DNA of 54,295 bases from Planctomycetota bacterium. Its GTDB lineage: Bacteria > Planctomycetota > Phycisphaerae > Sedimentisphaerales > Anaerohalosphaeraceae. The notes under the pieces were generated by a model that saw only the letters and a program-made list of their open reading frames with translations, did not search any database and was not told the DNA's origin. Shown here one piece after another: positions 29,506 to 41,945 of this stretch (the stretch's first letter is position 1; each line of letters opens with the position of its first letter). Position numbers and translations under genes: made by a program. The stretch is taken from assembly GCA_019456225.1 (NCBI GenBank), contig VRUI01000028.1:1-54295 (forward strand), read 5' to 3'.

Positions 29506-32500
29506 CTACGGCGATTTCGGATCGACCAATTCGATCACAACTTCGGGCATATTAACAACGATCTTGTCGGCAGTAACGACCTTCTTGCCGTCATCAAGCA
29601 CAACCTTGCCATCTTTGACAGTGAACACATATTCCCTGCCATCTCTTTTGATGGTACACCCGGCAGGTTCAAAGGTTACTTCCATCTTTTTGTCTTCCTG
29701 TTTAAATTTAAATTGCCCTCTTAGTGCTAGTGCCTTGTCTGAATAACACTTGACATACTCTGGTGCAAGCACATACCAGCGTTTCCACCTGCGGTTATCA
29801 TCCATATCAATACGCAGCCCATCTTTCTGGGCTTTAAAGATGAGCCTGCCGGTTACGCAGTCGCCTTTGCTCGTACTTGAACTGCCGCCGCCAGAAAAAT
29901 ACAGTTTATCCGTAAGCCCGTGCTGATCGTAAATGAAATTCCTGAAATTACTAATCCAGCTCTTATCGAGGGCCAACCGTCCATCGTTTTTTCTAAAGTT
30001 GATGCATTTCCATGTCCCATCCGGATAAAGGAAAAGTCTCAGGCGAGAGAATTTCGATTTCTTTGCTTTTGGCAATGGGATGAGAACATCGGCAGTACCA
30101 TCAACCGTAAACCAGTCAACCCTAATGTTATTGAGCAGATCTTCGTTTCCGGCATAAAGTTCTCCGATCGTTTTTGACCACTTAGGCCATTGATTATACA
30201 TGGTGTCGATACAATGCGATTTGATTGCTTTTGGATCATCCGACAGGATTGCCTTGATGTTGGTTTTCGCAGAATCGGCAAGAGTCTTATTTGTAGCTTC
30301 AAAACGTTCCTTCATATACGGATAAAGGAAATTATAAGTCTCGTCGAGTTTCCTTGCCTTTGCCCAATGCAGTAAGTTTAGTCTGGAATAACCTTGCGAA
30401 AATGTAACGGGCAATGTCCAGGGATCAGCCCCATTGTCCAGCAAAACTTTTGCCAGATCATAGCGTCGTGCTTCGATTGCAATCGTAAGCGGGGAGCAGC
30501 TTCTTCTCATCAGGTTAGGGTTGGCACCCATATCCATAAGGAATTTCAACATCATTACTTGCTGCTTAGCATTTCTTCTTCCGCTGCTGGAAGACGATGT
30601 CGCCAGTTGCAGCATTGTAGCACCATCGTGGCTTTTATTGTATCGGAAATCGATATCAGCACCTGCCTTGACAAGCAAGTCAATAGTATCCTTGTACTTT
30701 TGATTCTTTTTCTCATCACCATAATGTATAGCTTCATTCATGTATTTTCTGACAACTGCTGTTAAAGGTGTATACCCGGATTTATTTACAACATTAAATT
30801 TCGCCCGGCCGGCAAGCAGCTTTTTAACTTTTGCCGCATCCCCTTTTTCAGCCGCATAATGCAATGGCGTATTTTTCCCTTTATACACAACATTAATATC
30901 GACTTTCGCTTTGCGGATATAGTCAGCGATATCATCATGACCATTTTTAACAGCCAGCCCCAGGCAGGATTCCTTCTGCTTATTTATAAAACTTCCGCCA
31001 TGCTTGTGCAGCAGCTTAACCATCTCCAGGCTGCCCGAAGCAACCGCCAGTTCCATCGGACTTGCCCCCGTACCAAAATCAGGTTCCACTTCCCCGCCTT
31101 TACGCAGACATTGCTTAACCTTGTCAATATCCTTTCGATAGATAGCCATATGCAAAGGCGTAAAGCCTGTGTATTCGACAACGACAGGAGCGTTCGGATC
31201 AACTGCAGACTGTCTTTGGACAGCCATATCCTTAGTAAGCTTTCGATAATCAACATAGTTCGGCAGCGATTTCGGATTGGCCAGCGGTTTTAGAGTTTCG
31301 TTCAGGTCAGCAGCATAAATGCGATATTTATTTTGCATGGTCCTTATCGCACGCGGATAATGCATCCCGCCCGGCGTAACCGCAAACTCGGTTATTTCGC
31401 TCGACACCTTACCTTTTTTATCTAGACCGCGGACTGTTAAATAGTTCCGTTTAGGATCAAGGTAGTATTTGCCGCCCGATTTCGTCTGTGTACAGACAAG
31501 TCCGTTTTCCTTTGAATATTCATCTTCGACGATCTTACCCGAAGGCCCGCCCCACCAGCAGTAAGACAGGAACCTGTATTCCCTGCTGCTGGACTGGCTT
31601 ATCCCCATCGGTTTACCATCTTTAATGTCCCAGCCATACGTTTTGTATTCAAAATATTTATCATGAAACCGAATACTGTTGGAACGGATAATGCTGTCGG
31701 GTTTATGGATCCATTTGTAAACACTCTCAAACGAATCGCCCATATCCTTAAGGTATTGATCTTTCCTGGGATAAATATCCGAACTATTGCCGGAAAGTTC
31801 CAGATGGTCACGGCGGCTTAGATCCCCGTCCCGCATAACAAAACTTCCTGGAAGGTCTGAGTCTCTAAAGATGATAGCCGCATACGATTGATAATATTTC
31901 GCCTTGACCGCATTGATCTTATCAATGATCTTCTGTATCTCCCGGCTCGGCCGAGTATCGTTAACCTTTGTATCTTTCGCCACGCCGAGGTCGTAAAGAT
32001 CCCCGGGCCCGAAATCGGAATAATCAAACGCATACCGGATGCTGTTGACAACCGACTCTCTATAACCGTCCTTACCTTTTCTGTGAAGATAATCTTTGTA
32101 CTCACAGATGATCGGCAAGCCGCTTTTAGTATCTACAAGCCAGGTGTTTTGATGCGTGCGTTTGCCCGATCCATCCGGCAGCGTAAGTTCGATCTCGTAC
32201 AGCCAGGCGTGCTTATTATTGTATTTCGCCGCCTTCTTAGTGATAACGGCCCCTTTTTCCTCGTGCGATTCCAACAGACCATTGATCATCGGCAGCCGCT
32301 GACTAAGCCAGCCGTGCGTCTGCTCAAAATTACCAAGACTGCTGATTGTTATCGTATCACTTCTAAATTCAGTCTTCTCACGGGCTTTAAGATCGATCAT
32401 AAACGCAAAAGGCCCTCTATTACTTTTCGCAAAGACCTTTTCTTCTTTGGGGTTGTACCAGTACTCCATCTGAATAGTCCCGGATTTGCGGTCTTCCGAG

Positions 32501-33336
32501 AACATATACACCCACTTCTGGTTTAAAAAACTATCCCGCACGCTAGCAAAAGCAGGAGCAGCCCCATCGATAGACACGCCAAACTGATTTATGCCAAACA
32601 ACGCCGCGACCAATATTACCGCCGCCATAACATATTTTGTTATCTTACTCTGCATTATTATTCTCCACATATCATGATGCAGGCCAGGCTTTGGCGGTTT
32701 TGGTTTGTCTTTTATTTTCGTAAGCTCATCCAGCGGAACCTTCAAGCCGACGACTAACATAGTTATTACAAATGCCAGTGGAAAAATGATATGACTTAGA
32801 ATGAGAAATACCGGGTTTTGGGAATACAGCCAGTATTTACTAAAAAGATACAATACACCCGGTGCGACCAGTAAGGTAAAAAGCCAGAGAGTAATTGTCA
32901 GCATAATAAGGCGAGGCCATCTTATAACACGTTTGCCATTCTTTTTTCCTACGAACATAAATGCAAAACCTCTGTGTTTGCCGTGAACAAGATAACTAAG
33001 CCTGTGAACCTTTTCTCCGCTTTGACGTAACTTTTTATTATGAGGGCGAGCCAATATTATAATCATAGTAAGAAAACTCGAAACAATGACAATCCCTGTA
33101 ACGACAGGTGGTAAGCCAAGGACTCCTCCCAGGATGCCAGCCAATAAACACGCTCCAGGAATGGTAAAACTTAATATCGCGGATATGCCGACTACACGCC
33201 AGTTAAGAGCGTTCAGGTTTTTCTGTTCACTGTCCAGCATTTCTCTGAAAGTCTGGCGTTCGGTTTCTGTAATGCCTGCCGGATCGATGCCGTCGGCCTT
33301 TAATAGCCCCTCAAATAGTTTTTTATCGTTATCCAT
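29506..33336 (-). CDS. Multi-membrane protein with ankyrin repeats, probable anti-sigma or sensor partner of the adjacent ECF sigma factor
   Basis: 1276 residues. An N-terminal cytoplasmic stretch is followed by hydrophobic helices (about 45-95, 140-165, 175-200, and 237-255 before NQFGVSIDG). A middle domain (about 265-720) follows, starting FASVRDSFLNQKWVYMFSE, unrecognised. Next come about six ankyrin units (722-975; GFTPLHMAI, NTPLHYAAEKGD, GYTPLTAVV, SPLTIAIEARRYD) and a C-terminal domain of beta-like character. The start ATG at 33336 overlaps the sigma stop and has GGAGAGG before it. In planctomycetes, sigma genes followed by membrane proteins with this layout are frequent; anti-sigma function is inferred from context only. 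Confidence 0.8.
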   Translation of the reverse strand: MDNDKKLFEGLLKADGIDPAGITETERQTFREMLDSEQKNLNALNWRVVGISAILSFTIPGACLLAGILGGVLGLPPVVTGIVIVSSFLTMIIILARPHNKKLRQSGEKVHRLSYLVHGKHRGFAFMFVGKKNGKRVIRWPRLIMLTITLWLFTLLVAPGVLYLFSKYWLYSQNPVFLILSHIIFPLAFVITMLVVGLKVPLDELTKIKDKPKPPKPGLHHDMWRIIMQSKITKYVMAAVILVAALFGINQFGVSIDGAAPAFASVRDSFLNQKWVYMFSEDRKSGTIQMEYWYNPKEEKVFAKSNRGPFAFMIDLKAREKTEFRSDTITISSLGNFEQTHGWLSQRLPMINGLLESHEEKGAVITKKAAKYNNKHAWLYEIELTLPDGSGKRTHQNTWLVDTKSGLPIICEYKDYLHRKGKDGYRESVVNSIRYAFDYSDFGPGDLYDLGVAKDTKVNDTRPSREIQKIIDKINAVKAKYYQSYAAIIFRDSDLPGSFVMRDGDLSRRDHLELSGNSSDIYPRKDQYLKDMGDSFESVYKWIHKPDSIIRSNSIRFHDKYFEYKTYGWDIKDGKPMGISQSSSREYRFLSYCWWGGPSGKIVEDEYSKENGLVCTQTKSGGKYYLDPKRNYLTVRGLDKKGKVSSEITEFAVTPGGMHYPRAIRTMQNKYRIYAADLNETLKPLANPKSLPNYVDYRKLTKDMAVQRQSAVDPNAPVVVEYTGFTPLHMAIYRKDIDKVKQCLRKGGEVEPDFGTGASPMELAVASGSLEMVKLLHKHGGSFINKQKESCLGLAVKNGHDDIADYIRKAKVDINVVYKGKNTPLHYAAEKGDAAKVKKLLAGRAKFNVVNKSGYTPLTAVVRKYMNEAIHYGDEKKNQKYKDTIDLLVKAGADIDFRYNKSHDGATMLQLATSSSSSGRRNAKQQVMMLKFLMDMGANPNLMRRSCSPLTIAIEARRYDLAKVLLDNGADPWTLPVTFSQGYSRLNLLHWAKARKLDETYNFLYPYMKERFEATNKTLADSAKTNIKAILSDDPKAIKSHCIDTMYNQWPKWSKTIGELYAGNEDLLNNIRVDWFTVDGTADVLIPLPKAKKSKFSRLRLFLYPDGTWKCINFRKNDGRLALDKSWISNFRNFIYDQHGLTDKLYFSGGGSSSTSKGDCVTGRLIFKAQKDGLRIDMDDNRRWKRWYVLAPEYVKCYSDKALALRGQFKFKQEDKKMEVTFEPAGCTIKRDGREYVFTVKDGKVVLDDGKKVVTADKIVVNMPEVVIELVDPKSP

Positions 33337-33865
33337 TATGCCTCTCCATTTCTTTGCGAAGAGATTGCTTAGCGTAATAAATCCTTGAACGAACCGTCCC
33401 GACACTGCAATCGACAACCTCGGCTATCGATTGATACGGCATCTGCTCGATGAAAGACAGCGTAAGCACTTCTCTGTGGTATGGTTTCAATTTATTCAGG
33501 GCGATGTGTAATTTCGCGGCGTCGTCTGCGTCAAAAACCGGTTCATCGCCGCCTGATACGGGAAGTTCTTCTTCCGGCAGCGAAACAAACCTGTCCTTTT
33601 TCCTGAACCTGTCATAGACTTTATTCCTTGCGATACGGTACAGCCAGACATTCAAACAGCGAGCATCTTTCAGCTTCTTGATCTTCTTAAAAACGGTAAG
33701 CCACACATCCTGAAGAGTATCATCAATATTCGTACCGCCGCCGTCCAGCCGACGAACATAATACTTCAGCCTCGGCTGATATATCTCGAACAGCTCTTCA
33801 AAAGCGGACCTTTCGCCCTTCTTACAACGATGCACAATCGATTGAAGCAATTTGTCAATTTCCAT
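33329..33865 (-). CDS. ECF-type RNA polymerase sigma factor
   Basis: 178 residues. Region 2 (FEELFEIYQPRLKYYVRRLD then DDTLQDVWLTVFKKIKKLKD) and region 4 (LKPYHREVLTLSFIEQMPYQ, then VDCSVGTVRSRIYYAKQSLR) are typical of extracytoplasmic-function sigma factors. The ATG at 33865 has AGGGA upstream; upstream in-frame starts extend into non-conserved sequence. Its 3' end overlaps the next gene by 8 bp (33329-33336), coupling it to the ankyrin membrane protein. The signal is unknown. Confidence 0.92.
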   Translation of the reverse strand: MEIDKLLQSIVHRCKKGERSAFEELFEIYQPRLKYYVRRLDGGGTNIDDTLQDVWLTVFKKIKKLKDARCLNVWLYRIARNKVYDRFRKKDRFVSLPEEELPVSGGDEPVFDADDAAKLHIALNKLKPYHREVLTLSFIEQMPYQSIAEVVDCSVGTVRSRIYYAKQSLRKEMERHNG

Positions 33866-34039
33866 ATATGTCCCTTGATGTCTTTCCCGTATCACCAGAC
33901 AAAGACGCAGCCAGACCTGATTAGTTCAAATAAAAATAATATTTTCAAAATTTTATCAGGTTCCACCCCAAAAATCACGAAAAAGGTTATTAGCTAAATT
34001 ATGCTTTTTTTTAATCGCTGCTGCCATTAGAATGTCCTT

Positions 34040-35380
34040 ATGAGCAAAAAAGCTAAAGACAACAAACTTGATTCGATCCGCCAAAAAATCGCCGATTTCC
34101 CAACCGGACCCGGCCTGTACTTTATGAAGGGCCCCGGCGAGGTGGTCCTCTATATCGGCAAGGCAAAGAATCTCCGCTCCCGCGCCGCCAGCTATTTCCA
34201 GCCGTCCGCCGATCTCTTCACCTCCCGCGGCCCGAAGATCGTCGAGATGATCAACAAAACCATCGACGTCACCTATCTCGAAACCCCCAGCGAAGTCGAC
34301 GCCATCCTGCAGGAAGCCCGGCTCATCAAAGACATCCGCCCGCCGTACAACACCTCCCTCGTCGACAGCAAAACTTTCCCCTATCTGGAAATCACAACCC
34401 GCGACGAATTCCCCGGCGTCTACATCACCCGCAACCCAAAGAGCCCGCGAAGCCGCCTCTTCGGACCCTTCACCGGCGTAAGCGATCTCCGCGCAGTCGT
34501 AGTCCTGCTCCAAAAAATCTACAAGTTTAGAACCTGCAAGCTGGACATCAAAGAGTCCGACGAAAAACGCCGCTTCTTCCGCCCATGCCTGCTCTACAGC
34601 ATAAAGCAATGCGTAGCCCCATGCGCCGCAAAGGTCGACCGCAAACAATACCGCCAGCTGATCAACGACCTTGTAAAATTCCTCCAGTCAAAACGCTCAA
34701 CCATCCTCCGCGGCCTGAATAAAAAAATGCAGGAAGCCTCAGGCGCCATGAACTTCGAAGCCGCCGCCATGTACCGCGACAGAATCCGCCTCATCGAAAG
34801 GCTCGACCAGCGAGGAACCGTAAGCGCAAACGTACAACCGGAAGTCTTCGCAGCAGACCCATCCGAGGCACTGGAAAAACTCCGAAAACTATTCGACACC
34901 CCCCAGCCGATCCGCATTATCGAAGGCTTCGACATAGCCCACATCTCCGGCACCGACACCGTCGGCTCACTCGTAAAATTCATAGACGGCCGCCCCTTCA
35001 AAAGCGGCTACAGAAAATTCAAAATAAAAACCGTAACCGGCATAGACGACTACGCCTGCATGAAAGAGGTGCTAACCAGAAGATACAAACACGCCAAAGA
35101 AGGCGAAGAACTTTTCCCCGACCTGATCCTCATAGACGGAGGCAAAGGCCAGCTCCACGCAGCCGAAGACGCCTTCCGCCAGATGAACGCCCCAATGCCC
35201 CTCCTGGCCTCGCTAGCCAAACGAGAAGAAGAGATATTCATCCATGGAAAGGAAGACTCAATAAAACTCCCGGCAAATAATGCGGCAAGAAAACTCCTGC
35301 AATACGTAAGAGACGAAGCCCACAGATTCGCCCAACACTACCACCACATACTAAGAAAAAAGAAAATGCTGGGACAATAA
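34040..35380 (+). CDS. uvrC: UvrC-like excinuclease subunit, short form without HhH domain
   Basis: Makes the two incisions in nucleotide excision repair with UvrA and UvrB. It contains a GIY-YIG nuclease domain (GPGLYFMKGPGEVVLYIGKAKNL), a UVR motif region (about 225-255, MNFEAAAMYRDRIRLIE), and the RNase-H-like nuclease core (IEGFDIAHISGTDTVGSLV; PDLILIDGGKGQL; DEAHRFA). It ends soon after, with HHILRKKKMLGQ. At 446 residues it lacks the usual C-terminal helix-hairpin-helix domain and part of the linker of the normal 590-620-residue protein. No frameshift is seen, so the short form appears to be the intact gene. Confidence 0.9.
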   Translation: MSKKAKDNKLDSIRQKIADFPTGPGLYFMKGPGEVVLYIGKAKNLRSRAASYFQPSADLFTSRGPKIVEMINKTIDVTYLETPSEVDAILQEARLIKDIRPPYNTSLVDSKTFPYLEITTRDEFPGVYITRNPKSPRSRLFGPFTGVSDLRAVVVLLQKIYKFRTCKLDIKESDEKRRFFRPCLLYSIKQCVAPCAAKVDRKQYRQLINDLVKFLQSKRSTILRGLNKKMQEASGAMNFEAAAMYRDRIRLIERLDQRGTVSANVQPEVFAADPSEALEKLRKLFDTPQPIRIIEGFDIAHISGTDTVGSLVKFIDGRPFKSGYRKFKIKTVTGIDDYACMKEVLTRRYKHAKEGEELFPDLILIDGGKGQLHAAEDAFRQMNAPMPLLASLAKREEEIFIHGKEDSIKLPANNAARKLLQYVRDEAHRFAQHYHHILRKKKMLGQ

Positions 35381-36470: not shown

Positions 36471-38108
36471 ATGGCAAAAATTAAAAGCAAAATACTGGAA
36501 GACCTCTTTTCAGAGCTGCGTTTCGCACCCGCCGCCCAGCAGCAAAACCAACTCCGCGCAGCCGGCGAACTCGCCCTCATCATCGAACCCCAAAAACAAT
36601 ACCCATTCGAATTCATCTGCTTCAAACTCACCGGCTACCGCCTAAAGGAAGACCTCTCCGGAAAATTCATCTCCGGCGCCGACCTGACCCACGACCTCCA
36701 GATCATAATAAACAAACTAAGCCGAAAGGTCGCACCCCGCACCGCGGACCTGGGCGAAGAAGTATTCACTGTCGAACAGCTCGCCGCACAGATGAACGTC
36801 TCGACAAAGACAATCCGACGCTGGCGGCAAAAGGGACTCACCGGCTGGATATTCGTTTTTGATAACGAAAAAAAAATGCTGGGCTTTCCGGCTTCATCGA
36901 TTGACGAATTCGCGAAAAAAAATCCCGAAATCACCAAAACCGCGTCAAAATTTTCACAGCTAAACGATACCGAAAAACAGAACATCTTCGACACCGCAAG
37001 GCAAATAGCCCGCACAGAAAACCTAAGCCGTTACCAGGTCATCCTCCAAACCGCGGCCGCTACACACCGATCGAAAGAAACCATCCGCACGCTGCTGATC
37101 GACTTTGAGCAAAGCAGTCCCAAAAAGAAAGTCTTCGCAAAACCCGCCGGCGCAGTAAGCCCCCACGACGCAAAGACTATACATAAACTGTACGCCGAAG
37201 ATACCCCCGTCGCCGACATCATGCAGCGTTTCCATAGAAGCCGCAGCTCTATCTATCGCATAGTAAACCAGCGACGCGCAAAGAACCTCAGCCGCTTAAA
37301 GATCGAATATATCGACAGCCCGCAGTTCGCCGAGCCAAACGCCGCCAAGACGATAGTAACCGCCACCGAACCCCTCTTAGCCGAGCTAGCCAAACTCTCC
37401 AACCCCCTGCTCAACCGCATCCAGGAAACCGAACTGTTCAGACGATATAATTTCCTTAAATACATCGCATGCGCCCACCGCGAACAGATAGTTTACACCC
37501 GCCCTTCCGGGAAACTGCTGAACCGGGCAGAAGCAAATCTAAACGCCGCAGAGCATGTTAAAAAACTGATCATAGAATCGAATCTCGGCCTGGTCATCAG
37601 CATCGCAAGAAAACACCTCCATGGCGCACTAAACATGCCCGACCTCGTCAGCGAAGGCAACATGTCACTCATGCGAGCCGTGGAAAAATTCGATTATTCA
37701 AGGGGCTACCGCTTCAGCACTTACGCGACGCTGGCTATCGCAAAGGACTACGCAAGGAAAATACCCGCAGAAACTTTCCGGCTTGACAGCCCGTCTTCGG
37801 TGGACATGGAAAGCCTCTCACACGACATCCGCGGCGACCACCTCGCAGACATCACCGCGATAGAAACAGCCGCGCAAAGCCTGGACGAAGTAATAGAAAA
37901 CAACCTCACAAAACGACAGCAGTACATAATAAGAAACCACTTCGGCCTGGAGGGAAACAGGATAATAAAGAAAGCAAAAACATTAGAGGAGATAGGAAGA
38001 ACATTAAATTTGTCAAGGGAAAGAGTAAGACAAATAGAACTAATAGCCCTACAGCAGCTCCGCCACAACCTAAGCCCCGAACAATTCGACCTACTAACAA
38101 AAAAATAA
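36471..38108 (+). CDS. Sigma-70-family factor with extra N-terminal helix-turn-helix domains
   Basis: 545 residues. Residues 367-428 are sigma region 2 (LGLVISIARKHL; LVSEGNMSLMRAVEKFDYSR; GYRFSTYATLAIAKDYAR), and 479-533 are region 4 (LTKRQQYIIRNHFGLEG; LEEIGRTLNLSRERVRQIE), typical of the RpoD/SigA group. Before them lie a first domain (1-95) with no match, a MerR/excisionase-like HTH (about 97-125: FTVEQLAAQMNVSTKTIRRW) and a resolvase-like HTH (about 234-270: HKLYAEDTPVADIMQRFHRS). Region 1.1 is not seen. The ATG at 36471 is chosen; an upstream ATG at 36441 is in the repeat. This layout differs from any sigma factor I recall. Confidence 0.85.
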   Translation: MAKIKSKILEDLFSELRFAPAAQQQNQLRAAGELALIIEPQKQYPFEFICFKLTGYRLKEDLSGKFISGADLTHDLQIIINKLSRKVAPRTADLGEEVFTVEQLAAQMNVSTKTIRRWRQKGLTGWIFVFDNEKKMLGFPASSIDEFAKKNPEITKTASKFSQLNDTEKQNIFDTARQIARTENLSRYQVILQTAAATHRSKETIRTLLIDFEQSSPKKKVFAKPAGAVSPHDAKTIHKLYAEDTPVADIMQRFHRSRSSIYRIVNQRRAKNLSRLKIEYIDSPQFAEPNAAKTIVTATEPLLAELAKLSNPLLNRIQETELFRRYNFLKYIACAHREQIVYTRPSGKLLNRAEANLNAAEHVKKLIIESNLGLVISIARKHLHGALNMPDLVSEGNMSLMRAVEKFDYSRGYRFSTYATLAIAKDYARKIPAETFRLDSPSSVDMESLSHDIRGDHLADITAIETAAQSLDEVIENNLTKRQQYIIRNHFGLEGNRIIKKAKTLEEIGRTLNLSRERVRQIELIALQQLRHNLSPEQFDLLTKK

Positions 38109-38312: not shown

Positions 38313-41300
38313 TTATGCTTTCTTCTTTTCTTTCTCTTTCCTCTTCCTCTCTTCTTCCCCCATCCAGCCCTCAATTGCCTCTGCACTATCAAGTACCCCT
38401 TCTTCATTATGCGGAAGCACAACAACCCGAACAAACTCCGCCAATTTCTGGTAACCCTCTTTATTAAATAGCTCTGCTATTTCCTCTCTAACATTTTCTA
38501 ATACTTTCTTCGCCTTTGCCGCCTCGATCTTCGCAACATGCTCTTCCTTAACCAATGCCGCCATACACCTGCCTCGAACCTTCATAGGCCAGTTATGCAA
38601 AAACTCCTGCCAGAATAGCATCTGCAACATGTCAAGCGTACTGCCATCCCCGCCTCTCCCCAACGCCTTCAAAAATCGAAACGAATTGTGAAGCCGCAAC
38701 AATTGTCGCGGATTATTAAACTCGAACAAACCCGCAAGACGGTAAAACTCCACACCTTCTTCAGGAGTGTCTTTTATTTTTCCCCCATTACTATTTTTAT
38801 CCCTTGGCTTTATAAACTGTTTAACCAGTGTCTGCCCGGCCTTCTGGAATGCCTTCTTAAATCTATTGCTGTTGTCCTGTTCTATAGGTTCTTTAACACC
38901 ACTTTTTGACGCCCCCCTGTTTTTCTTTCTGGAAGATTTGGGCTCTTCTACAGGTTCGGGTTTATCCTTAAACTGCTTCCATTCCTTTTCCTTAAAATCA
39001 AATAATTTCCCATATACGTAATTCCTAAGATATTCGTGCTCAATTGGCTCAAGCGTCACAGGAATCTGAATTATTTTTCCTAAGTAATCTCTCGCCACTG
39101 CTGCCGATGTTCTTCTATTCCCATCCTCTTTCTCAGCCAATATATGATAATGCCTTTCAACTGCCTTGAAAGCAATGCGATGATCTATACATATCATAAC
39201 TATCACATTTGCAGTAGGCATCACCAATCGTATCGCATCTAACGTCTCTGCGATACAGTCATGCTTGCACCTATCGAGATCATCAACGAACAATAATAGC
39301 TTTCTATCTTTCCCAATTTTTATTTTTGTGAAAGGAATTCTGATTGCATTGAGCTTCAATTTACACAATATTTTTATGTGCCCTTTAAGTACAGGAACAA
39401 GCCCTAAATGCTTCGAATAATTAGGAAGTTTAAAATATTTTTCCAAATTCGATGGGAGTGGATGTTTTATAAAACTAATTATCATCTTAAACAGATACCA
39501 CAACCCACCAAACCCACTTACCGCTACTGAAGTTGTGAATGGCCAATGCTCCAATAATTCATCTTTTACAAAATTAATGTCCTGTGGCTTTAAATGGTAA
39601 TATAGAAAACAACTAGCTGTTCCACATAGAAGGAACTTAAAAATATCCCAGCGGCTTTCAATTAGATTAAAACAAAACGCCAGCCAAAATTTATGAAGCC
39701 AGCATTTTATCGTATTAAGAATACCATGATAAGGTTCTCCTTTTAACCCTCTAACAACCTCTTGTGCCATCCCCGCGGCTAAGTTGTCAGTTTGTTCGTA
39801 TTCCCACGCATTAAATAAAGCGAAGTCAAATTTACTTGTCCTAATTTTTTGTAGTCCCGAGTTTATAAGCGCCCACAGAACTGGGACCTTGTATTTAACT
39901 CGTTTCTCCTTATAAATTGCCCAAAACCGACCTCTTTCACGAAGCTTCTTTTTGAGTATTTCCATCACCGAGCTTTTACCTTCTCCCCAGTTCCCCATAA
40001 GCGAAAGCGTAAAACCGTTGTTAAATTCTGTGGCTATCAAAGTGTCGGCAAATGCATCAATTAACACATCTCTGCCAAGGGCGTCTACATCAGTGACTTC
40101 ATCACCGCGTAAAGTAGCAAACTTACCAAACACTTTCAGCATTAATTTATGGAAAACATTTACTGCCTTCTCACCGCCTACATTTTCTACACCCAAGTTA
40201 AGAATTTCTCCCAAGGCATTCAATTGTTCAGGAACAGTAACTATTTCTCCATGAATGACATATACTGTGATTTTTTCTCTAGTTCCTTTTTTGGGCAGAT
40301 TACCATTTAACCACGCTTTTTCTCCAGGTATGTTTTTTTTATAACCACTAAGTTCTGTGATTTTGCCCTTGTCAATAAAATCATTAAGTTTCGGCTCTGA
40401 AACCTCAACTCCTTTCATGGGCCCAACTACTGCCAATGCAATTAATTCCCCATACTCCCCATATTTATGAATTTGCGCAACAACATTATCTCTTTTTCCC
40501 GAATCCGCTAATCTCAAGTTCGCATAACTTTCATCCACATCTTCAGCATAAAGTCCAATATTAGGGTCCGCAGCCAAAACGATAATCCTGTCCAATATCT
40601 GACTCCCCTCAATATCGACTCCACTCCTAAATTTTTTAAATAAGCCCAACTGTATGCTAGGAGCCTCTTGCTTTAACTCTTCATATCGCGGAAAGTCTTT
40701 ACATGATATGGCAGAAGTATCGCCAGAAGTCATGTGAAACTCATGAATAATAAATTCTTCGCCCAAGTCAGCTACACCAGGCAACACTAAATAAAATTTG
40801 ATTTCTGAATATGATTCATCATCGATGTAAGTCATAAAGGTATTGTGCGCAAAATGTAAAACTGATTCTTCATCACTCAATCCAAATCCAACAACGGCCA
40901 ATTGTTTTTTATTATTCCGATCAATTATGTCAAGGAGAACCCTTGATATATTTGATCTAAGACCATATTCGAAATTTGAACGATTGTAGCCTTTTTTCTT
41001 ATTAAGAAAATCTGTGAAATCTGTACACAATTTACGTTCATCACTAATTGCTATATCGCCACCTTGAGTTTTAGTTTCTCGTTCCCATTTACTTCTTAAA
41101 ACCTCATAAGGGGGGAATTCATCAGTTGTTACAAAGAGTTGATAAAGTTTATCATTGATTTTGTAAACCTCAAAAGCTTCAGATGATTTATCTTGGCCCG
41201 GACAAACGATAAACATAAATGGATCAGGCTTTCCTAAAAGACCCTCATTACAAAGAAATTCAAGTTTTCTCGTTGCATCAATTAAAGTCTCACTATCATT

Positions 41301-41930
41301 AGAAAGCGCAAATCCAAATATGGCTATAGGTTTCGCGTCTTTGCCAGCAGTAACACATAGATCAACTTGTTGTCCCTTCTTTACAATTTCCTCAATATGG
41401 CCTGAATAACCGTTACTATCTAAAAACTTTGTAAAATCTTTCTCCAACTTATCCTTATCAACTATCTTGTCAAACTTTTTAATTCCTCTAACCGCCTCTG
41501 ATTCAACAGGCATTTCTACAGCTTCCTTTATACGATCCTCAAGAAAATCTAACGTAAAATCAATGTATTGTTCCATTGCTCCACTAACGTAGTCATTTAC
41601 ACCACTAACTTGATCATATTTGACGATACCGTGTTTTCCCGCTAGCTCATTAAGTCTTTCGCCATGACTACATTCGTACATCAGGTATAAGCCAATGCTA
41701 GCGATTTCCTCAAGAGTGCCTGCTTGGGGTGGCCTAACATTACTTGTCCCTTCCAAAAGCGATAGAGTCGGATATTGATCAAAGTGATTCTGTATAATTG
41801 CTCCGATCTTTGGAACAGATTTACAGTATTTAATAAAAGCCCTAATACGCGGATCAACACTTTTTGCATTAACATTAGCAAGTGGCTTGCGTCTATTGCG
41901 AAACTCCTTAAGAACTGATTTATCCATCAT
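38313..41930 (-). CDS. KAP-family P-loop NTPase with tandem N-terminal domains and internal membrane helices
   Basis: 1205 residues. Walker A GNWGEGKSS at 646-654, followed by hydrophobic helices (KFLLCGTASCFLYY; TTSVAVSGFGGLWYLFKMI), then Walker B FVDDLDR with D883-D884: the KAP arrangement, in which membrane segments sit inside the NTPase domain. The N-terminal 500 residues contain two repeats, seen as AKPIAIFGFALSNDSETL (about 200) and KKQLAVVGFGLSDEESVL (about 340), each followed by a PGQD/PGVAD loop and an FP-YE-L end, with a weaker third near 490 (LIALAVVGPMKG). The C-terminus has coiled, basic helices. ATG 41930 is chosen (GGAG 9 bases upstream; 41945 possible). Base composition is AT-rich compared with its neighbours, suggesting transfer. 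KAP NTPases occur in phage defence systems; that role here is inferred. Confidence 0.85.
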   Translation of the reverse strand: MMDKSVLKEFRNRRKPLANVNAKSVDPRIRAFIKYCKSVPKIGAIIQNHFDQYPTLSLLEGTSNVRPPQAGTLEEIASIGLYLMYECSHGERLNELAGKHGIVKYDQVSGVNDYVSGAMEQYIDFTLDFLEDRIKEAVEMPVESEAVRGIKKFDKIVDKDKLEKDFTKFLDSNGYSGHIEEIVKKGQQVDLCVTAGKDAKPIAIFGFALSNDSETLIDATRKLEFLCNEGLLGKPDPFMFIVCPGQDKSSEAFEVYKINDKLYQLFVTTDEFPPYEVLRSKWERETKTQGGDIAISDERKLCTDFTDFLNKKKGYNRSNFEYGLRSNISRVLLDIIDRNNKKQLAVVGFGLSDEESVLHFAHNTFMTYIDDESYSEIKFYLVLPGVADLGEEFIIHEFHMTSGDTSAISCKDFPRYEELKQEAPSIQLGLFKKFRSGVDIEGSQILDRIIVLAADPNIGLYAEDVDESYANLRLADSGKRDNVVAQIHKYGEYGELIALAVVGPMKGVEVSEPKLNDFIDKGKITELSGYKKNIPGEKAWLNGNLPKKGTREKITVYVIHGEIVTVPEQLNALGEILNLGVENVGGEKAVNVFHKLMLKVFGKFATLRGDEVTDVDALGRDVLIDAFADTLIATEFNNGFTLSLMGNWGEGKSSVMEILKKKLRERGRFWAIYKEKRVKYKVPVLWALINSGLQKIRTSKFDFALFNAWEYEQTDNLAAGMAQEVVRGLKGEPYHGILNTIKCWLHKFWLAFCFNLIESRWDIFKFLLCGTASCFLYYHLKPQDINFVKDELLEHWPFTTSVAVSGFGGLWYLFKMIISFIKHPLPSNLEKYFKLPNYSKHLGLVPVLKGHIKILCKLKLNAIRIPFTKIKIGKDRKLLLFVDDLDRCKHDCIAETLDAIRLVMPTANVIVMICIDHRIAFKAVERHYHILAEKEDGNRRTSAAVARDYLGKIIQIPVTLEPIEHEYLRNYVYGKLFDFKEKEWKQFKDKPEPVEEPKSSRKKNRGASKSGVKEPIEQDNSNRFKKAFQKAGQTLVKQFIKPRDKNSNGGKIKDTPEEGVEFYRLAGLFEFNNPRQLLRLHNSFRFLKALGRGGDGSTLDMLQMLFWQEFLHNWPMKVRGRCMAALVKEEHVAKIEAAKAKKVLENVREEIAELFNKEGYQKLAEFVRVVVLPHNEEGVLDSAEAIEGWMGEEERKRKEKEKKKA

Positions 41931-41945
41931 AATTATTTTCTCCAT

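Follow-up and report, generated by a model that had tools for sequence, protein, structure and literature searches.

A conserved planctomycete sigma-70 factor with N-terminal DNA-binding-like heads and without region 3

Sigma factors and activators are commonly regarded as distinct components. In sigma-70 factors, region 1.1 is acidic and region 3 is the reader of the extended -10 element. The -10 element itself is read or melted in E. coli by residues W434, Q437 and T440 (E. coli numbering). Region 3 is present in the sigma factors of groups 2 and 3. The ECF factors of group 4 have regions 2 and 4 and are without region 3 and the first helix of region 1.2, according to PMC4598750.

In this study, a 54,295-nucleotide stretch of DNA from a planctomycete of the class Phycisphaerae (the window, drawn from an assembly of 152 contigs) was analysed, with the focus on a gene at 36471-38108 on the forward strand. 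The gene is one uninterrupted frame of 545 amino acids starting at ATG 36471, although the list of open reading frames places its opening at TTG 36441. Its product, termed heads-sigma below, comprises four N-terminal domains (the heads, D1-D4) and a C-terminal sigma half, a combination of features that matches none of the sigma groups 1-4. The features are as follows.

36471..38108, + strand: whole gene, 545-residue sigma factor with N-terminal heads (single open frame; orthologs)
36480..36740, + strand: D1, residues 4-90, helical, unmatched, consensus KEYPFEFVCFKITGYRP (AlphaFold; no Pfam match)
36756..36926, + strand: D2, residues 96-152, excisionase/BldC/MerR-like winged helix-turn-helix with VSxKTIxRWRxxGL (Pfam, sequence and structure neighbours)
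36948..37145, + strand: D3, residues 160-225, tri-helical, helix-turn-helix-like (AlphaFold; VIA; weakly IS629 OrfA)
37155..37295, + strand: D4, residues 229-275, resolvase/Hin-like helix-turn-helix (Pfam, neighbours)
37398..37505, + strand: sigma region 1.2, residues about 310-345 (phmmer, PLLxREQE motif, hhalign)
37551..37772, + strand: sigma region 2, residues 361-434, with a changed region 2.4 in which the W434, Q437 and T440 equivalents are replaced (Pfam, alignment)
37773..37838, + strand: short disordered linker at the position of region 3, residues 435-456 (AlphaFold, spacer length)
37839..38075, + strand: sigma region 4, residues 457-535, with an RpoD-like RERVRQIE motif (Pfam, alignment)

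An earlier note, made from the sequence alone, had described an unmatched first domain and two helix-turn-helix segments, one excisionase-like and one resolvase-like, standing before regions 2-4 in the place of region 1. For the N-terminal half this description was borne out by Pfam, which found an HTH_17/MerR-like sequence at residues 98-149 and HTH_7/HTH_28 at residues 229-273 and reported nothing for residues 1-81. The neighbours of D2 in both sequence and structure are BldC, excisionases, phage terminase small subunits and MerR proteins (Z about 5-7), and D2 is similar to DNA-bound BldC. The fold and motif are thus shared with the BldC, excisionase and MerR-type winged helix-turn-helix proteins, but these are free-standing regulators, whereas D2 is one module within a sigma factor. 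D4 likewise resembles the DNA-binding domains of resolvases and Hin, but heads-sigma is without a recombinase catalytic domain. The earlier note had overlooked a third helix-turn-helix-like domain, D3, whose structural neighbours in VIA are a mixture of helix-turn-helix and winged-helix proteins with middling scores, and which matches IS629 OrfA weakly (E 0.1). When the complete N-terminus was searched with Foldseek, neither the PDB nor the viral models yielded a match at E <= 0.001, and no claim is made on the fold of D1 because the VIA list of structural neighbours scarcely covered it.

The AlphaFold model of the full protein (20 sequences) had a mean pLDDT of 84.5 and a pTM of 0.48, the latter leaving the packing between domains uncertain; the model of the N-terminal part alone (19 sequences) reached a pLDDT of 89.6 and a pTM of 0.70. 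In both models the head units, including the tri-helical D3, are helical and confident. The heads are basic overall, with net charges of +5 in D3 and +6 in D4. When the head profile was compared with residues 1-230 of the genome's own RpoD, hhalign returned a probability of only 0.3%, and none of the solved-structure matches listed, the best relatives being SigA and RpoD, starts before residue 298; the N-terminal part therefore matches no sigma region, a match that the earlier note had named as refuting. We infer that the heads form an array of DNA-binding-like modules, for which sequence-specific binding is suggested by resemblance in predicted fold and in sequence.

Membership of the sigma-70 family is established by Pfam matches to Sigma70_r2 at residues 368-421 (51.2 bits, cut-off 24) and Sigma70_r4 at residues 478-532 (49.7 bits, cut-off 24.1), and all eight further long intact orthologs tested exceed both cut-offs. 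Among the best 25 of 51 NCBIfam rows, only the superfamily model sigma70-ECF passes (85.1 versus 42.9) and no equivalog or subfamily sigma model lies above its curated cut-off. The claim that the heads replace region 1 holds for region 1.1, which was not found, but not for region 1.2, which is recognisable at about residues 310-345. There, the phmmer alignment to mycobacterial SigA begins at residue 313, the PLLxREQE motif marks the region, and hhalign gives the correct register with a weak score; AlphaFold places helices at 291-307 and 316-339, and the Pfam model of region 1.2 was not reported for the protein.

Similarly, regions 2 and 4 of the supposed regions 2-4 were confirmed by Pfam, but region 3 was not. 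No Pfam model of region 3 is reported, residues 434-459 have a pLDDT below 50, and about 57 residues fewer than in the genome's own RpoD separate FSTYA (the end of region 2.3) from the region 4 motif ERxRQ. This spacer measures 89-103 residues (median 96) in those 37 of the 40 intact orthologs for which the script detected both motifs, compared with 153 in both other sigma factors examined from the same genome; region 3 is therefore truly absent rather than just undetected. Region 2.4 is altered as well: across the 40 intact orthologs aligned, the Q437 equivalent is always K or R, the T440 equivalent always A, and the W434 equivalent never W (A in 35). A changed -10 preference together with a kept -35 preference is a reasonable guess from these alignments.

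Heads-sigma is thus like the group 1 and 2 factors RpoD, SigA and RpoS in that regions 1.2, 2 and 4 align and region 4 carries RERVRQIE, but it differs from them in the three helix-turn-helix-like heads, the altered region 2.4, the absence of region 3 and a region 1.1 that was not found; the spacer of 96 versus 153 residues equally separates it from groups 2 and 3. With the ECF factors it shares the possession of regions 2 and 4 and the lack of region 3, but it has a recognisable region 1.2, an RpoD-like region 4 and the additional heads. Heads-sigma is real and conserved, and none of the libraries searched has a separate name for it. In the literature covered, from which most subscription articles and every preprint were missing, no paper was recognised as describing this architecture.

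The distribution of the gene was then assessed, as the earlier note had proposed. In related genomes, the architecture is conserved, mostly at full length and with 35-57% identity; 55 of the 59 relatives have a match with E <= 1e-20, in most cases over the entire length and only once. Heads were found in 287 of the 296 genomes of the class that passed a 90% completeness filter, nearly all with one match, and in 270 of 277 high-quality class genomes. Full-length orthologs also occur outside the class, e.g. in Rhodopirellula, Fuerstiella and Pirellula, and further holders are Candidatus Laterigemmans, Rubripirellula and Bythopirellula. However, heads were present in only 91 of 392 genomes in a sample of the phylum (at 1e-12), so many planctomycete families are without them. 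A scan of named genomes kept 80 loci; the first 22 are titled planctomycetes, 20 of which extend well into the heads, and in the remaining 58 the match is confined to residue 278 onward. When 27 genomes were searched for the gene outside Planctomycetota, two Planctomycetota controls matched strongly, 24 had no match and one, of Ktedonobacter, matched weakly and only in part (3e-6); in the phylum of the latter, 0 of 121 genomes matched at 1e-10 in a search that had no internal positive.

Given the 152-contig assembly, the gene could have been the product of sequencing, binning or gene fusion, and a frameshift artefact had been named as a refuting possibility. This explanation is refuted, since the equivalent frame is open, with identical architecture and similar lengths, in hundreds of separate assemblies, single-contig genomes included. 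A mobile origin was also rejected: matches covering 80% of the protein occurred in none of the 64 phage and 268 plasmid records with a match, and the matches listed (eight each) start no earlier than residue 291. The heads-sigma gene is a chromosomal, usually single-copy gene of the sigma-70 family in Planctomycetota.

In 31 sampled proteins the heads are kept while sigma regions 2 and 4 are stripped of most conserved residues. Thirty of them come from the Phycisphaerae families f8, f10, f11 and f12 and one from f97, outside the class (family labels are codes of the search tool). In 28 of these degenerate proteins, residues conserved in the intact orthologs are kept at 78, 63, 77 and 71% in D1, D2, D3 and D4 (11, 13, 7 and 4 columns scored), compared with 37, 27 and 25% in regions 1.2, 2 and 4 (9, 33 and 20 columns), and region 2 retains at most 16 of its 37 positions in every one of them. 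Among the Pfam matches listed for ten degenerate proteins, region 2 appears once, below the cut-off, and region 4, in place, is above the cut-off in three. A further 20 proteins of the class divided into 14 intact, three intermediate and three degenerate. The 14 intact ones retain 32-37 of 37 conserved columns in region 2 and 19-22 of 22 in region 4, the intermediates (f107, f109) retain 21, 28 and 31 of 37 in region 2. Separately from these 20, the three f9 proteins show a partial change (22-26 of about 36). In a quick tree, the heads required three changes between intact and degenerate labels, compared with 25.6 in shuffles, and at least two of these are forced by well-supported branches, 35 of the 85 inner branches being unsure. 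This indicates that the sigma signatures were lost independently at least twice.

In close pairs, the degenerate tails are still under purifying selection in two of the three families tested. Their dN/dS was 0.14-0.28 in seven pairs from f8 and f12 and 0.75 in a single f10 pair, with high dS throughout; purifying selection on the f8 and f12 tails implies that the product is in use. The tail is better conserved than the heads in close pairs of f8 and the reverse applies to f12, so the stronger constraint does not always fall on the heads. Heads that are kept while the sigma half changes beyond recognition probably matter in their own right, and lineages with heads but without sigma signatures constitute a natural experiment on which half matters.

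A separate short sigma factor, mostly encoded in frames of 300-380 amino acids (L185-L203), occurs in many Planctomycetota. Its sigma part is like that of heads-sigma, without region 3 and matching positions of about 265-550 in the family profile, but it is without D1-D3 and most or all of D4. In a search that scored three candidates per genome, it turned up in 29 of the 30 class genomes that belong to other orders than the window's (absent from G397) and in only one of 11 genomes of the window's own order. We consider it rather unlikely that two or more conversions of a sigma factor into a transcription factor took place, affecting four Phycisphaerae families and one case beyond the class, in which the promoter-choosing heads were kept, the sigma half lost its signatures and was reused, and the short paralog of the same genomes recruits polymerase in trans, such that an ancestral chain was split into chooser and recruiter. 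The pairing is suggestive only, because the short sigma accompanies intact long forms (f9, f35) as well as degenerate ones. In two genomes of f59 (L181:483-1619 and L182:1088-2230), D1 is fused directly to the sigma regions and D2-D4 are missing.

We assign a probability of about 50% to the reading that heads-sigma constitutes a planctomycete sigma subfamily in which docking of the heads on DNA serves to place RNA polymerase, so that sigma factor and activator are united in one chain. Core RNA polymerase would be recruited via regions 1.2, 2 and 4 by a factor that has lost region 3 and changed its -10-reading residues, and the heads would dock on a nearby DNA site and thereby position the polymerase. 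Region 4 would presumably still read a TTGACA-like -35 element, and docking by the heads would decide the choice of promoter. That the heads choose promoters, as the earlier note had proposed, is plausible, and the interpretation in that note is partly supported, as its observations are partly confirmed. In line with it are the co-conservation of the heads with the altered region 2.4, the absence of region 3, and heads that outlast the sigma half. Counted against docking are the middling matches of D3, the lack of useful structural matches for D1, the D1-sigma fusions of f59, the restriction of heads to 91 of the 392 sampled phylum genomes, the better conserved tail in f8 and a conserved upstream site, described below, that may serve another sigma factor; conservation of the heads could instead serve protein contacts. 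If head docking is true, a conserved, single-copy chain without region 3 does the jobs of sigma factor and activator, and its gene offers direct access to the global transcription of a phylum with little-known regulation.

Since the heads occupy the place that region 1.1 has in group 1 sigma factors, they might act as a gate that covers the DNA-binding surfaces of sigma and is opened by a signal or by a DNA site, with promoter choice residing in regions 2 and 4 only. Free sigma factors are naturally compact, as stated in PMC4598750, but the heads are basic rather than acidic, three of their domains resemble DNA binders, and in the 31 proteins that have lost the sigma signatures little is left to gate, which makes this explanation improbable. 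A role of the heads with a job of their own, e.g. as a repressor or a chromosome-organising DNA binder to which sigma activity is secondary, would fit the finding that two or more lineages retain them beside a divergent sigma tail, and the continued use of the f8 and f12 products. However, the intact regions 2 and 4 of the 14 proteins mentioned above, out of 20 additional ones from the class, would be needless for a pure DNA binder, and f59 retains sigma and D1 without D2-D4, so this too is doubtful.

Upstream of the gene, a block of about 48 bases hardly varies among nine genomes of one genus (most in L138) and contains GAACTTTTT-N-CGTC, which we take to resemble an ECF-type promoter. The form GAACTTTTT-N10..12-CGTC stands before L126-L138 and other orthologs of f35 and occurs at background frequency elsewhere in those genomes. 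This conserved site in one Planctomycetia family may serve another sigma factor. GAAC-N15..17-CGTC was found upstream of 22 of 48 orthologs compared with 71 of 1200 control windows, a comparison that is not independent because the motif was chosen after inspection of the upstream alignment; a site of this type is absent upstream of the window's gene. In each of seven genomes a stricter motif is present 2-4 times, about as frequent as its reversed control. One such site lies at the heads-sigma gene in all six genomes other than the window's, and of the 14 other loci several fall within or next to unrelated genes and a few are apparently intergenic. The motif is a lead on the control of the gene and not evidence on the protein's own target. 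Before L014, L021, L024, L028 and L030, a sigma-70-like TTGCxT-N17-xATAAT, read by eye, directly precedes the start codon, which suggests leaderless mRNAs.

The Rhodopirellula baltica gene RB12251 may be a member of the family. PMC2754498 describes it as a 567-amino-acid 'RNA polymerase specialized sigma factor' of pI 9.4 that is repressed, together with many genes for ribosomal proteins, under heat, cold and salt shock, and elsewhere names it rfaY; the ortholog from Rhodopirellula sp. JC639 has 556 amino acids and a pI of 9.1, so that length and pI fit.

Neighbours vary, and among 41 loci compared no conserved operon or anti-sigma partner was found. Recurrent neighbours, of which two representatives each were scanned, are a proC-like gene (13 loci), an electron-transfer flavoprotein (8), a corrinoid protein (7) and an unmatched divergent gene (10). 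The last, encoding 450-590 amino acids upstream on the opposite strand in L040, L041, L043, L044, L046-L049, L051 and L054, had no Pfam match in the two examples. Of the window's own neighbours, only an ECF sigma gene was matched elsewhere, in two of the 41 loci. At 29506-33895 on the reverse strand, an ECF sigma gene overlaps the start of a gene for a predicted 1303-amino-acid ankyrin-repeat protein, and the two are possibly a sigma factor and its partner. A 1210-amino-acid NTPase of the KAP family, which matches the anti-phage protein QatA below the threshold, is encoded at 38313-41945 on the reverse strand, and a UvrC-like protein of only 446 amino acids, above the UvrC cut-off, at 34040-35380 on the forward strand.
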